Assembly (NCBI GenBank): GCA_031177685.1
Contig: JAPSGI010000008.1
Span: 124,001-188,000, forward strand
Direction of reading: 5' to 3'
Origin: Solirubrobacteraceae bacterium
GTDB taxonomy: Bacteria > Actinomycetota > Thermoleophilia > Solirubrobacterales > Solirubrobacteraceae
DNA: 64,000 nt
The notes below the pieces were generated by a model. That model made no database searches. It saw only the letters and a program-made list of their open reading frames with translations, and was not told where the DNA came from. The position numbers were made by a program, and so were the translations under genes. This document shows, piece by piece, positions 50,651 to 61,289 of this stretch; positions within the stretch are counted from its first letter, which is position 1; every line of letters begins with the position of its first letter.

Positions 50651-51537
50651 TGAGCGAGCGGCGTCGCTCCGAGCGGCGACTGGCGTGGATGCTGTGCGCG
50701 CCCGCGGTCATCGCAATGCTGATCGTCACCGGCTACCCGATCGGCTACGCGGTCTGGCTGTCGCTGCAGGACTACGACCTGCGCTTCCCCGACGACCGCG
50801 AGTTCGTCGGCCTGTCCAACTACGCCGACGTGCTGACGTCGAGCATCTGGTGGGGCGACGTGTGGAACACCACGATCATCACCGTCGCCTCGGTGAGCAT
50901 CGAGCTGGTGCTGGGCATGGCGATCGCGCTGATCATGCACCGCGCGATCTTCGGCCGCGGCGCCGTGCGGGCGTCGGTGCTCATCCCCTACGGCATCGTG
51001 ACCGTGGTGGCCGCGTTCGGCTGGCGCTACGCCTTCGATCCGGCCAGCGGCTTCGTCCAGAACCTGCCGCTGATCTCCGACACCGCCGCCCCGCTGACCG
51101 AGCGCGGCGGCTCGCTGGCGGTGATCGTGCTCACCGAGGTGTGGAAGACCACGCCGTTCATGGCGCTGCTGCTGCTGGCCGGCCTGGCGCTGGTGCCCGA
51201 CGAGCTGCACGAGGCCGCCAAGGTGGACGGCGCCGGCCCGGTGCAGCGCTTCTTCCGCATCACGCTGCCGCTCATGAAGCCGGCGATCCTCGTGGCGCTG
51301 CTGTTTCGCACGCTGGACGCCTTCCGCGTCTTCGACACCGTCTACATCCAGACGGCCGGCGCCAACGGCACCGAGACCGTCTCGATCCTCGGCTACCAGG
51401 TCCTGATCAACCGCGTGAACCTGGGCGTGGGCTCCGCCGTGTCCGTGCTGATCTTCCTCGCGGTCATCCTGATCGCGACCTTCTTCGTCCGCGGCCTGGG
51501 CGCGAGCACCGCGCGCCAGCGGGGGGAGGCGGCGTAG
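50650..51537 (+). CDS. sugA: Sugar ABC transporter permease (SugA/MalF-type)
   Basis: A 295-residue permease starting [20 protein letters not shown], in TGATG overlap with the binding-protein gene. Six membrane helices are visible ([60 protein letters not shown] and others). The EAA loop is [20 protein letters not shown]. It forms the translocation channel with SugB. Its stop overlaps the sugB GTG by 1 bp. A longer open frame upstream is shadow of the preceding genes. Confidence 0.93.
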
Positions 51538-52367
51538 TGCTGCGCTCCTCGCGCGAGGCGGCCCTGTGGTCGATCGGGATCCTCGTCGTGCTGCTGTACG
51601 CGCTGATCCCGGTGCTGTGGATCCTCTCGCTGTCGCTCAAGCCGGCCGACCAGCTCGGCGACCGCCGGTTCGTCCCGCAGGAGTTCTCCTTCGAGAACTA
51701 CGAGACGATCTTCAACACCGAGACGTTCACGCGGGCGCTGGTCAACTCGGTGGGCATCGCGGGCCTCGCGACGCTGATCTCGATCCTCCTGGCGGCGATG
51801 GCCGCCTACGCGCTGGCCCGGCTGGACTTCGCCGGCAAGGCGCTCATTCTCTCGGGCGCGCTCGCGGTGGCGATGTTCCCGCCGATCTCGATCGTCGGCT
51901 CGCTGTTCAACATCTGGCGCGAGGTCGGCCTCTACGACACGTGGCCCGGGCTGATCATCCCCTACATGACCTTCACGCTGCCGCTGGCGATCTACACGCT
52001 GTCGGCGTTCTTCCGCGAGATCCCCTGGGAGCTCGAGCAGGCCGCCCAGGTCGACGGCGCCACGCCGTTTCAGGCCTTCCGCAAGGTCATCGTCCCGCTG
52101 GCCGCGCCGGGCGTCTTCACCTCGGCCATCCTCGTCTTCATCTTCGCCTGGAACGACTTCATCTTCGCCAACACGCTGACCTCGACCGACGAGGCCCGCA
52201 CGGTCCCCGCGGCCCTGGCCTTCTTCACCGGCGGGTCGCAGTTCGAGCAGCCGATCGGGGCGATCTCCGCCGCCTCGATCGTCGTCACGATCCCCATCAT
52301 CGTCATGGTCCTGATCTTCCAGCGCCGCATCGTGGCCGGTCTGACCGCGGGCGCCGTGAAGGGTTAG
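51537..52367 (+). CDS. sugB: Sugar ABC transporter permease (SugB/MalG-type)
   Basis: A 276-residue permease with GTG start overlapping the sugA stop. Six helices, first [20 protein letters not shown], and EAA loop [21 protein letters not shown]-terminus ends GLTAGAVKG followed by TAG. This stop codon is also the left end of the ~168-bp inverted-repeat element; removing the element leaves TAG and brings the sugC ribosome site next to it, implying the original operon was contiguous. Pairs with SugA in sugar import. Confidence 0.93.
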
Positions 52368-52534
52368 ATGGCTGATTCCACGACCCCCACGACCGGCTGC
52401 ACGCGTCTCGCGCCGCCGGATCGCCACGTGCCGAAGGGGTCCGTGGCTCCGCCACTGTCCCCCTTCGACCCGCGGCGCCCGGCATCCCCGAGCCACGCAC
52501 ATCCGGCCGCGCCGGCCGCGGACTCAACCATCTA
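52365..52534 (-). mobile_element. ~168-bp inverted-repeat element, copy 1 (MITE-like), between sugB and sugC
   Basis: Reverse-complementary to the copy at 59731-59899, about 88% identical by eye along its length. Ends TAGATGG(C/T)TGA... and ...TCAACCATCTA form terminal inverted repeats of about 12 bp. The central hairpin GAAGGGG...CCCCTTC (52433-52466) contains a nested GTGGC/GCCAC-type stem and is unchanged apart from one loop base between copies. It is flanked by TA at both ends (52365-52366 and 52533-52534), compatible with a TA target duplication. No coding capacity. It interrupts the sug operon; a structured RNA or bidirectional terminator is the alternative reading. Confidence 0.75.
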
Positions 52535-52550: not shown

Positions 52551-53726
52551 ATGGCCGACATCGTCCTCGACCACGTCACGAAGCGATATCCCGACGGCTA
52601 CGAGGCCGTCAAGGAGATGGACCTCCAGGTCGCCGACGGCGAGTTCATCATCCTGGTCGGGCCGTCGGGCTGCGGGAAGTCCACGGCGCTGCGGATGATC
52701 GCCGGGCTGGAGGACATCACCGACGGCGAGCTGCGCATCGGCGGGGACGTGGTCAACGACCGCGCCCCCAAGGACCGCGACATCGCGATGGTCTTTCAGA
52801 ACTACGCGCTGTACCCGCACATGACCGTGCGCGAGAACATGGGGTTCGCGCTCAAGCTGGCCAAGGCGCCCAAGGAGGAGATCGACCGCAAGGTGCTCGA
52901 GGCGGCGCGCATCCTCGACCTCGAGCAGCACCTGGACCGCAAGCCGGCCAACCTGTCCGGCGGCCAGCGCCAGCGCGTGGCGATGGGCCGCGCGATCGTG
53001 CGCGACCCCAAGGCCTTCCTGATGGACGAGCCGCTGTCCAACCTGGACGCCAAGCTGCGCGTGCAGATGCGCACCGAGGTCTCGCGCATCCAGTCGCGCC
53101 TGGGGACCACGACCGTCTACGTCACGCACGACCAGACCGAGGCCATGACGCTGGGCGACCGCGTCGCGGTGATGCGCACGGGCCGCCTGCAGCAGGTCGG
53201 CAGGCCCAGCGAGCTCTACAACGACCCGGTCAACCTGTTCGTGGCCGGGTTCATCGGCTCCCCCGCGATGAACTTCCTGCCGGCCACGGTGGAGGGCGAC
53301 ACCATCCACCTGCCGATCGGCGACGTGCCCGTCGCCGAGGAGCACCGCCGCGGGCTGCAGTCCGGCGGCGCGCGCAGCGTGATCGCGGGCCTGCGTCCGG
53401 AGAGCTTCGAGGACGCGGCGCTGGTCGGCGACCAGCGCGAGCGCGGGATCGCGTTCCAGGCCAAGATCGACGTGGTCGAGTCGATGGGCTCCGAGCTGTA
53501 CGCGTACTTCGCCGTGGAGACGGAGGGCGTGGCCTCCCAGGAGCTGGAGGAGCTCGCCCAGGACGCCGGGACCGCCGAGGTGCCGGGCGCGGAGAGCGGC
53601 CAGGTGGTCGCCCGCCTGGACGCCGCGAGCCAGGTGAGCGAGGGCGCGGAGGCCGAGCTGTGGTTCGACGCGGCCAAGCTGCACCTGTTCGACGCCGAGA
53701 GCGGCCGCAGCCTGCGCGCCGCCTAG
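52551..53726 (+). CDS. sugC: Sugar ABC transporter ATPase (SugC/MsiK/UgpC-type)
   Basis: A 391-residue ATPase. Walker [16 protein letters not shown]-loop [20 protein letters not shown], signature [19 protein letters not shown], Walker [16 protein letters not shown]-loop [20 protein letters not shown], and a C-terminal TOBE/OB domain (from about 240) with [15 protein letters not shown]. It energises SugAB. A ribosome site (AGAGGAG, 52536-52542) precedes the ATG and lies just outside the inserted element. The TAG stop overlaps, in a shared CTAG, the stop of the convergent ParB-like gene. Confidence 0.95.
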
Positions 53727-58950: not shown

Positions 58951-59733
58951 ATGGCCTCCAGGCCCGCCCACCAGCTCGCGCCCGCCCCCGTTCCGGCGCA
59001 CCTGCGGCGCATGCGCGTCACGCTCGCCGACGGCCTGCGCACGACGGTCCACGTGGCGCGCTACGACCTCGCGCGCACGGCGCTGCGCGTCGCGCTGCTG
59101 CGCCGGCCCGCCCCGCTGGAGGCGTGGTGCGCCGCACAGGGCGTCGACGAGGCGCTGGTCGGCGGGTTCTTCACGCGCCCGGACACCCGCCCGCTGGGCG
59201 AGGTGCGCACGCGCGGCATGGCGCGGCGCTTCACGCCGTTCGACGCGCCGTGGGGTGCGTCGCGCGCCTGCGTGCACGTGGAGCGCGGACGTGTCCGCAT
59301 CGCGGCCCGCGACGAGCTCGCGCGCCAGCCGCGCGGCGACGTGCTCCAGGCCGGGCCGCTGCTGGTGCGCGGCGGCGAGACCGCGCTGCGCGACTGCGAC
59401 GACGCGGAGGGGTTCTCCGCCGGCGCGCATCAGTTCGACTCCGACATCACGGCGGGGCGCTACCCGCGCGCCGCGCTGGGCATCTCGCGGCACGAGCTGA
59501 TCGCGGTCGCCTGCGATGGGCGCTCGCGCACGGACGCCGGCCTCACCCTGCCCGAGCTGGCGTCTGTGCTGATCGAGCTCGGCGCGCTCGACGCGCTCAA
59601 CCTCGACGGGGGCGGATCGACGTCGCTGGTCTGCGGCGGCGCACTGCGCAACCGCCCCCGCGCGCAGTTCGGCATCCCCCTGCCGGGGGGCCGGCCGGTG
59701 GCCACGGCGCTGGTGTTCGCGGCGCGCGAATAG
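58951..59733 (+). CDS. Phosphodiester glycosidase family (NAGPA-domain) protein
   Basis: A 260-residue protein with no clear signal peptide. The NAGPA-domain signature ALDALNLDGGGSTSLVCGGA followed by LRNRPRAQFG lies near 213-240. Earlier ALVGGFFTRPDTRPLGEVRT, PWGASRACVHVERGRVRIAA and ALGISRHELIAVACDGRSRT fit the same fold. Homologues hydrolyse phosphodiester-linked N-acetylglucosamine or modify exopolysaccharide; this branch is poorly characterised. Its mRNA may be controlled by the palindrome at the ribosome site. The stop TAG is the left end of the second copy of the inverted-repeat element. Confidence 0.82.
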   Translation: MASRPAHQLAPAPVPAHLRRMRVTLADGLRTTVHVARYDLARTALRVALLRRPAPLEAWCAAQGVDEALVGGFFTRPDTRPLGEVRTRGMARRFTPFDAPWGASRACVHVERGRVRIAARDELARQPRGDVLQAGPLLVRGGETALRDCDDAEGFSAGAHQFDSDITAGRYPRAALGISRHELIAVACDGRSRTDAGLTLPELASVLIELGALDALNLDGGGSTSLVCGGALRNRPRAQFGIPLPGGRPVATALVFAARE

Positions 59734-59899
59734 ATGGTTGAGTCCATGGCCCGCGCGGCCGCAGGTACGTGGCTCGTGGATGCGCGGCGACGCGGGGCGA
59801 AGGGGGACAGTGGCAGAGCCACGGACCCCTTCGGCACGTGGCGTCCGCGCGCCGCGAGACGCGTGCATGCGGTCGTGGGGGTCGTGACTCAGCCATCTA
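59731..59899 (+). mobile_element. ~168-bp inverted-repeat element, copy 2 (MITE-like), after the phosphodiester glycosidase gene
   Basis: Inverted relative to the copy at 52365-52534. Terminal repeats TAGATGGTTGAGTC and GACTCAGCCATCTA pair at 13 of 14 positions. The central hairpin (59799-59832) is GAAGGGG...CCCCTTC with an inner GTGGC/GCCAC stem and AGA loop. Further complementary arms CGTGGCTC and GAGCCACG are also kept in both copies. TA lies at both borders (59731-59732, 59898-59899). Deleting the element with one TA leaves a TAA stop for the upstream gene and 12 bp to the downstream ATG. No ORF inside. Confidence 0.75.
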
Positions 59900-59912: not shown

Positions 59913-61289
59913 ATGCCGCGCGCCCTGATCGGACTCATGTTCTTCCCGCGTGGGGGGTCGGCGCACGTCACGCGCGCTCTCGCGCACGCGCTCCCCGCCC
60001 ACGGCTGGGACGTGCAGGTCGTCACCGGGTCGGTGCGCGACGGCCCCTCGGACGCCAAGCGCTTCTTCGCCGGCCTGGACGTCTGCACGATGGACTACAC
60101 CGGCGCGCTGACGGCGGCGAACCCGCTCGCGCACGACCCGCCGATGCACCCGTCCTTCGAGGACCGCCCGGACGCGCCCGACCCCGTCTTCGCCAAGGTC
60201 GACGACGCCGGCTACGAGCGCCTGGTGGACGCGTGGTCGGCCAAGCTCGCCGAGGCGGGGGCGGCGGACGCCGACGTGCTGCACCTCAACCACCTCACCC
60301 CGCTGCACGCCGCGGCGGAGCGCGTGGCCCCGGACGTGCCCGTTGTGACGCACGTCCACGGGACCGAGCTGCTGATGCTCGAGGCGATCGCCGCCGGCCC
60401 ACCCGCGGGCTGGGACCACGCCGAGGCCTGGTCCGCGCGGATGCGCCGCTGGGGCCGCGCGTCGGGCCGGCTGGTCCTGCTCTCCGACACCCAGGAGGAG
60501 CGCGTGGAGCGCGAGCTGGGCATCCCGCCCGAGCGCTGCACGGTCGTCCCCAACGGCTTTGACCCGGAGGTGTTCGACCGCCGCGAAGTCGACCGCATGG
60601 CGGTCTGGCGGCGCTGGCTCGTGCAGGAGCCGCGCGGCTGGCGCCCGGGCGCCGGCGCCGGCAGCGTCGCCTACGAGGACGCCGACCTCGGCGCGTTCTC
60701 CGACCAAAATCCCGTCCTGCTCTACGTCGGGCGCTACACGCGCGTGAAGCGCATCGGGCTGCTCGTGCGCGCCTACGCCCGGGCCCGGACGCAGTTCGCG
60801 CGACCGGCGCCGCTCGTGCTGCTCGGCGGCTACCCCGGCGAGTGGGAGGGCGAGCACCCGGTCGAGGCGATCGAGCGCTGCGGCGTGGAGCGCGAGGTCT
60901 TCGTCGCCGGCTGGCACGACCACGACCTGCTGCCGGAGTTCTTCGCGGCCTGCGACGCCGTCGTGCTGCCCTCGGTGCGCGAGCAGTTCGGGCAGGTCCT
61001 GGTAGAGGGAATGGCGTGCGGGCTGCCGGCGATCGCGGTGGACGCGCACGGCCCCGGGCAGATCGTCGACGACGGCCGCACGGGCTGGCTGGTCGAGCCC
61101 GACGACGAGGAGGCGCTGGCCGGGGCGCTGGTTGCCGCGGTCAACGACGACGCCGAGCGCCGCCGCCGCGGCGAGGCGGCCCGCGTCGATGTCCGCGGGA
61201 AGTATTCGTGGCCCGCGCTGGCCGCGCGCGTCGCCGCGATCTACGACACCGAAGTCGGACAGCCGGTGTCGCGTCCGGCTAAGATCTGA
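59913..61289 (+). CDS. GT4-family glycosyltransferase
   Basis: A 458-residue GT-B enzyme starting MPRALIGLMFFPRGGSAHVT. N-terminal domain with PVVTHVHGTELLML; linker VVPNGFDPEVFDR; C-terminal domain with VLLYVGRYTRVKRIGLLVRA, LVLLGGYPGEWEGE, and E(x7)E signature in REQFGQVLVEGMACGLPAIA. Overall similar to glycogen/sucrose-type transferases, but substrates are not evident. Acts in the cytosol. The element in front separates it from the phosphodiester glycosidase gene; before insertion the two probably formed an operon of glycan-active enzymes. Its 3' end contains a dyad and -10-like box for gltB. Confidence 0.87.
   Translation: MPRALIGLMFFPRGGSAHVTRALAHALPAHGWDVQVVTGSVRDGPSDAKRFFAGLDVCTMDYTGALTAANPLAHDPPMHPSFEDRPDAPDPVFAKVDDAGYERLVDAWSAKLAEAGAADADVLHLNHLTPLHAAAERVAPDVPVVTHVHGTELLMLEAIAAGPPAGWDHAEAWSARMRRWGRASGRLVLLSDTQEERVERELGIPPERCTVVPNGFDPEVFDRREVDRMAVWRRWLVQEPRGWRPGAGAGSVAYEDADLGAFSDQNPVLLYVGRYTRVKRIGLLVRAYARARTQFARPAPLVLLGGYPGEWEGEHPVEAIERCGVEREVFVAGWHDHDLLPEFFAACDAVVLPSVREQFGQVLVEGMACGLPAIAVDAHGPGQIVDDGRTGWLVEPDDEEALAGALVAAVNDDAERRRRGEAARVDVRGKYSWPALAARVAAIYDTEVGQPVSRPAKI
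61244..61285 (+). promoter_or_regulatory. Dyad and -10-like box ahead of gltB
   Basis: CGACACCG at 61244-61251 and CGGTGTCG at 61264-61271 form a perfect 8-bp inverted repeat with a 12-nt spacer, inside the 3' end of the glycosyltransferase gene. TAAGAT at 61280-61285 is a good -10 hexamer, 43 bp before the gltB ATG. The dyad would overlap a -35 region, so it may be the site of a regulator of glutamate synthase. Confidence 0.4.

Follow-up and report, generated by a model that had tools for sequence, protein, structure and literature searches.

Two short palindromic elements in the window, the stretch of 64,000 nucleotides from a Solirubrobacteraceae bacterium that was analysed here (G000:C29:124001-188000, in a 3.15 Mb draft assembly of 31 contigs), are probably non-autonomous insertion sequences (MITEs) that are moved in trans by a transposase of the IS982 family, that survive in stop codons, and whose body is a hairpin kept on one of its two strands. 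On this account they offer a clean case of a transposon end that rebuilds the codon in which it lands, TA plus G giving TAG on either side. They would also represent bacterial MITE bodies that evolve like structured RNA on a single strand, with an orientation bias against the host operon.

Insertion at the stop codons of tight operons

Copy 1 (52365..52534, 170 bp including both TAs) separates sugB (51537..52367, plus strand), which encodes an ABC sugar transporter permease (PF00528), from sugC (52551..53726, plus strand), which encodes a MalK-type ABC transporter ATPase (PF00005, PF17912). Copy 2 (59731..59899, 169 bp including both TAs) separates a phosphodiester glycosidase gene (58951..59733, plus strand; PF09992) from the glycosyltransferase gene 3' of it (59913..61289, plus strand; PF00534, PF13439). 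Both copies are inverted repeats bounded by TA, and they read TAGATGGCTGATTCC...GGACTCAACCATCTA and TAGATGGTTGAGTCC...GACTCAGCCATCTA, respectively. The left terminal repeat of copy 1 (52365..52379, plus strand) comprises the TA target duplicate and GATGGCTGATTCC, an end that matches the end of an IS982-family insertion sequence (IS), while its right terminal repeat (52520..52534) reads TAGATGGTTGAGTCC on the minus strand and includes the second TA. In copy 2 the left terminal repeat (59731..59745, plus strand) reads TAGATGGTTGAGTCC, and the right terminal repeat (59885..59899), again with the second TA, reads TAGATGGCTGAGTCA on the minus strand. The two copies lie in opposite orientation, copy 2 being the reverse complement, and this holds relative to their own genes as well: the strand whose fold contains G-U pairs (hereafter the G-U strand) is the minus strand in copy 1, antisense to sugB-sugC, and the plus strand in copy 2, the same strand as the operon.

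The preliminary description had each copy begin at the TAG of the upstream gene, and the reading frames agree, with 52365-52367 closing the sugB ORF and 59731-59733 closing that of the phosphodiester glycosidase; the TA that it placed on both sides of each copy is read directly in the sequence. Removal of the element together with one TA leaves GGT TAG AGAGGAGCTCCCGTT ATG between sugB and sugC. The restored TAG is as described, while the distance of 14 bp given to the sugC ribosome site is slightly off: a purine-rich ribosome site directly follows the stop codon, and 15 nt separate the stop from the sugC ATG. At the second site the same operation leaves GAA TAA CCTCCGGCGCGC ATG, with the TAA and the 12 nt to the ATG that had been claimed.

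Relatives that lack the element provide an independent view of the first site. A search with the sugB protein against 121 family genomes returned 29 relatives with readable loci, among which 27 are empty, one was left unparsed and one (G006) is filled, so that among readable loci only the window genome and G006 carry an element between sugB and sugC. The 27 empty junctions consist of a stop codon, 3 to ~31 nt and a start codon. Several have exactly the form that had been predicted for them and equal the empty site deduced from the window (e.g. GGC TAG AGAAGGAGTCCCC GTG and GGT TAG AGGAGCACGCC ATG). Within the window genome we mapped six full copies (89-100% identity to copy 2) and one short copy; the preliminary description had proposed mapping all copies to stop codons, and with the flanks of each copy joined, six of the seven are placed in a stop codon, two of the six in a TA that is common to two convergent stop codons. 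The short copy (G000:C17:46074-46129; L007:1476-1531) retains the two ends only, in 56 bp, and is itself in a stop codon; it demonstrates that hairpins do undergo internal deletion. Taken with the full-length IS described below, which has the same ends, the empty sites and the other copies sustain the view that both elements are TA-duplicating insertions at stop-codon TAs of tight operons that leave both proteins intact.

Copy 1 falls outside the recent clade formed by the five other full copies (copies 2-6; support 100/99). No other copy comes as close to the G006 element as copy 1 does (79.4% identity, vs 72-75%). Both occupy the sugB-sugC junction with like orientation, and both-sided changes between them leave pairs intact. 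The simplest reading is one old shared insertion that was lost later in some relatives; two independent insertions are possible, the tree being without resolution on this point. A further explanation is that a host regulatory feature of gene ends, such as a bidirectional terminator or an RNase III site, became domesticated at sugB-sugC, and the common junction and orientation, the mutual best match outside the recent burst and the preserved pairs would all suit it. We nevertheless consider it improbable, as the 27 relatives without the element include a genome of G006's own genus, no T-run follows the element, and the copies are scattered at unrelated genes, the copy 1 and G006 sites being the only pair with homologous genes alongside.

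A probable mobilising insertion sequence and its target

A family-wide search for the terminal sequence revealed inverted pairs of TAGATGGTTGATTCC spaced 992-1005 bp apart in G036 and G004. These ISs of ~1 kb end in TA-GATGGTTGATTCC, as the element does, and carry an ORF of 289-293 aa for an IS982-family transposase. The G036 and G004 proteins score 158.1 and 173.3 bits against the NCBIfam IS982 model NF033520 (cut-off 130), and the length of ~1 kb also fits the family. Relatives of this transposase are found in 24 of the 146 family genomes. IS630, the first guess from the TA, was ruled out as the mover by the transposase model, and the IS5 family was rejected at 45 bits, far below its cut-off of 110. 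IS5-family elements use C-TA-G or TA targets, the same target word as here, but the present transposase fails the IS5 models. In the IS982 family the terminal repeats start with 5'-AC in 57 of 69 members (PMC7335449); this terminus is absent here, where the ends start with GATGG after the TA. Direct repeats in the family vary in length, and members with 2 bp or 0 bp are listed (PMC7335449); the IS described here has a constant 2-bp TA.

Judged by its sequence the element is a MITE: it is short, it lacks an ORF, its terminal inverted repeat TAGATGGTTGATTCC is common to an autonomous IS, and it shows both TA duplication and empty sites. An autonomous partner in the same genome was not found in the window's 31-contig draft assembly, which yielded no matching transposase at E <= 1e-15 and no ~1 kb pair of element ends. 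From the ends, the target and the empty sites we infer that mobilisation occurs in trans by an IS982-family transposase.

The behaviour of a related IS in G093 (one contig) bears on the choice of site. Sixteen identical copies are readable in this genome, 15 of them at C-TA-G with TA on both sides, and 12 of the 15 scorable copies are in stop codons. The related IS is thus also found mostly in stop codons, so the habit is one of the transposition system and of the insertions that survive, and not of the hairpin alone. When 54 family hairpins were scored on their empty sites, 33 fell in stop codons, 18 were intergenic and three were coding, against 51, 237 and 980, respectively, for all remaining TAs in those stretches. 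CTAG words are themselves concentrated at stop codons in these GC-rich genomes: in this null, drawn from the window and the retrieved flanks, they are distributed as 17 stop, 24 intergenic and three coding. Among the 51 non-coding hairpin sites the 33 stop codons compare with 20.1 +/- 3.3 expected from the tetranucleotide alone. Gene calls came from a simple script that had learnt codon usage from the window, and stop codons that it missed in the null may contribute part of the excess; the excess over the tetranucleotide is most simply explained by loss of promoter insertions. As far as these counts show, stop codons are not targeted as such, the related IS targeting C-TA-G.

These observations can be accommodated in a single scheme. 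Relatives of the IS982-family transposase target TA, preferably within C-TA-G, and leave a TA on each side. Both flanking TAs always become TAG, since a G opens the terminal repeat, which accounts for the TAG on both sides of the element; insertion into the TA of a TAG or TAA rebuilds a stop on either strand, even where convergent genes share that TA. The target words are concentrated at gene ends in these GC-rich genomes, and coding or promoter insertions appear to be lost, leaving the survivors in stop codons. The surviving stop-codon sites then follow from three causes, namely the TA target, the G-starting end that rebuilds TAG and the loss of harmful insertions, and stop codons, even doubly used convergent ones, act as safe harbours in GC-rich genomes.

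Some sites hold composite arrangements. The tandem IS copies of G036 (L152; G036:C5:158700-160500) lie head to tail with a single common TA, and two hairpins do so at G270:C177:1860-2192, an arrangement that would arise if one copy inserted into the TA at the border of another. At G019:C113:20293-21184 (L154, L032) a hairpin directly adjoins the end of a truncated IS whose ends match its own, which suggests insertion into that IS or recombination with it. A 420-bp element with similar ends (L156; G156:C63:62347-62766) is not an IS and does not have the ~167-bp length of the hairpins.

Strand asymmetry and covariation in the hairpin body

The body of the element is a full-length hairpin of ~73 bp whose two strands differ markedly in predicted RNA stability. 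For copy 1 the fold energy is -131 kcal/mol on the minus strand vs -84 on the plus strand, and for copy 2 it is -135 on the plus strand vs -91 on the minus strand; across the genomic copies the stronger strand ranges from -129 to -140 kcal/mol and the other from -83 to -100. The difference is due to G-U pairs. Breaks in the palindrome are nearly always G-U on the same element strand, and this is the case for copies 1 and 2 despite their opposite orientation. The 69 family elements contain 699 G-U vs 58 A-C oppositions, with G-U exceeding A-C in every element, and 60 elements from elsewhere in the class contain 545 vs 92, G-U outnumbering A-C in 59 of them. The expected G-U share is 0.62 and not 0.5, as the model selects whichever strand is better; the shares observed, 0.92 in the family and 0.86 in the class, lie above the maximum of 5000 simulations. 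G-U makes up about 15% of the pairs.

The stem also shows coordinated change between its arms. Both-sided changes are seen in 38 of 73 pairs (vs 19.8 +/- 2.3 in shuffles) and, for 45 diverse elements aligned by a fit to the structure that leans towards it, in 68 of 73; they are far commoner than in shuffled or slid controls, and sites move from G-C through G-U to A-U with pairing kept. A mid-stem motif, GTGGATG, occurs near position 46 (44-50) or near 24-25 in about half of the elements, compared with 2/129 shuffled sequences and 3/129 on the other strand. In an exact-pattern scan of named genomes the motif matched only two contigs of a single MAG. In copy 2 it lies at element position 46 (59776..59782, plus strand) with a bulged A and a U-G pair, and a U-G pair beside a bulged A is present in 16/16 elements and in 41/45 diverse elements. 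None of the 4227 Rfam covariance models gave a match at E <= 1 within either copy. By comparative analysis the body looks like a structured RNA on two counts, covariation beyond shuffles and strand-specific G-U, a combination that implies selection on a single strand, whether RNA or single-stranded DNA (ssDNA). A full-length hairpin that shows G-U and not A-C, on one strand and across deep divergence, is not a decayed IS remnant, and a near-perfect hairpin kept on one strand is something that a simple transposon relic would not need.

The same data could be read as a plain IS982-type MITE that is palindromic by chance, with a hairpin that has no role, a perfection that stems from recent copying and template-switch repair, and stop-codon sites that are leftovers of selection. 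Its ends, target and empty sites fit this reading, as does the single recent clade of copies 2-6. Template switching can moreover copy one arm of a palindrome onto the other and so mimic compensatory change with no function needed, and for this reason our argument rests on the asymmetry between G-U and A-C and not on covariation alone. A plain MITE predicts G-U and A-C alike on each strand, contrary to the counts in both sets of elements, and it leaves unexplained the mid-stem motif and a length of ~167 bp that is common to three end types (see below); we regard it as unlikely.

The orientation of the elements relative to host genes provides a further constraint. In 57 tandem settings the G-U strand is antisense to the genes in 45 and sense in 12 (p = 1.3e-5), a rule that copy 1 follows and copy 2 does not. 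Strand mutation bias could in principle have created the G-U asymmetry without selection, since cytosine deamination yields G-U through C to T changes on one strand, and these are the commonest mutation in many bacteria. However, the strand most exposed to deamination is the coding or leading one, so that G-U would be expected on the coding strand; the observed sign is the reverse, which argues for selection. The passage from G-C through G-U to A-U with pairing kept also speaks against mutation bias, and we judge this explanation very improbable.

For selection on the G-U strand we favour a transcript. The single-stranded form of this strand, most probably a transcript, would have to fold for the element to persist, and sense insertions would have been purged on account of the damage that so strong a hairpin in the mRNA would do to the operon. 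No promoter for such a transcript was seen. With the G-U strand antisense the mRNA would carry the weaker hairpin, and read-through and translation of the next gene may be less disturbed. Alternatively, the selected form may be a DNA hairpin that arises on ssDNA during replication or transposition, with the orientation bias reflecting avoidance of the lagging-strand template, on which a strong hairpin would face cutting or deletion. Strand-specific tolerance of G-T fits ssDNA as well as RNA, and the orientation bias fits replication too, genes tending to be co-directional with it. The ends and the TA duplication instead point to a DDE transposase acting on double-stranded DNA rather than to one of the HUH enzymes, which work on ssDNA hairpins, and a G-U fraction of ~15% fits RNA helices better, G-T being costlier in DNA. 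We hold the DNA hairpin to be possible but do not favour it.

Spread across the class and relation to known elements

A covariance model built from 16 elements matches 45 of the 146 family genomes and 19 of 25 genera. A second model, from 45 elements, matches 55 of 249 sampled class genomes in several families and has no matches outside the class among 198 sampled phylum genomes, ~180 of which lie outside it. Different ends (CTAAGAACC, TAGAGCCTATC, TAGAGGCTTGATGTG and more) are present in many members of the class. Lengths cluster at 163-174 bp, near 167 bp, even where the ends are unrelated, and for three end types 19/34, 6/9 and 11/18 end pairs fall within 160-180 bp. The constant length is not an artefact of the model, as the clustering persists when measured from the ends alone. 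Searches for ~1 kb autonomous IS pairs with the ends CTAAGAACC and TAGAGCCTATC found none. We tentatively raise a class-wide family of ~167-nt hairpins, selected as a single-stranded molecule, that would spread wearing the ends of different ISs, with the hairpin and not any IS as the lineage; the outer stem would fit one IS end or another (TAGATGG, CTAAGAACC, TAGAGCCTATC and more), with the mid-stem motif and the length retained. We think this the lesser prospect, and the hairpins with other ends may instead be several lineages of similar form.

The same hairpin length and mid-stem motif occur with the ends CTAAGAACCTGTTTC (L199, L209, L310, L311, L313) and TAGAGCCTATCTCG (L273, L282), and one of these ends is matched 55 times in G330; no autonomous IS was found for hairpins with either.

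IS982-family MITEs have been described previously, an example from Cardinium being the MITE of ISCca4, ~240 bp long (PMC9769881), which is likewise short, lacks an ORF and has ends that match an IS982 element. The present elements differ from it in forming a single hairpin over their entire length, with strand-specific G-U, and in their TA duplication at C-TA-G and ends of GATGG rather than AC. As reviewed in PMC2229807, RUP of Streptococcus pneumoniae, ERIC/IRU and Correia/NEMIS resemble them in size (100-170 bp), TA termini, long stem-loop transcripts and intergenic location; RUP is mobilised by IS630-Spn1, the transposase family differs, and NEMIS hairpins are cut by RNase III. The passages of that review consulted here contain no description of strand-biased wobble, a mid-stem motif or a stop-codon preference for these three groups. 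YPAL/RU-2 of Yersinia is a 168 bp palindromic element that is co-transcribed with upstream genes, but its termini lack the TA and its target duplications measure 3-26 bp (PMC2229807). The Chunjie MITE of Geobacter uraniireducens (Chen et al. 2008, cited by PMC10969869) is 235 bp long, unlike the ~170 bp here. Why ERIC, RUP, Correia and YPAL have long hairpins is an old question in the field, and the count of G-U against A-C is a simple test for single-strand selection that can be applied to each of them.

The hairpin tip of the two window copies, GGGGACAGTGGC...GCCACGGACCCC (window 52436-52475 and 59805-59828), recalls short REP-like GGGGACAGTCCCC palindromes; many relatives carry other sequences at this position.
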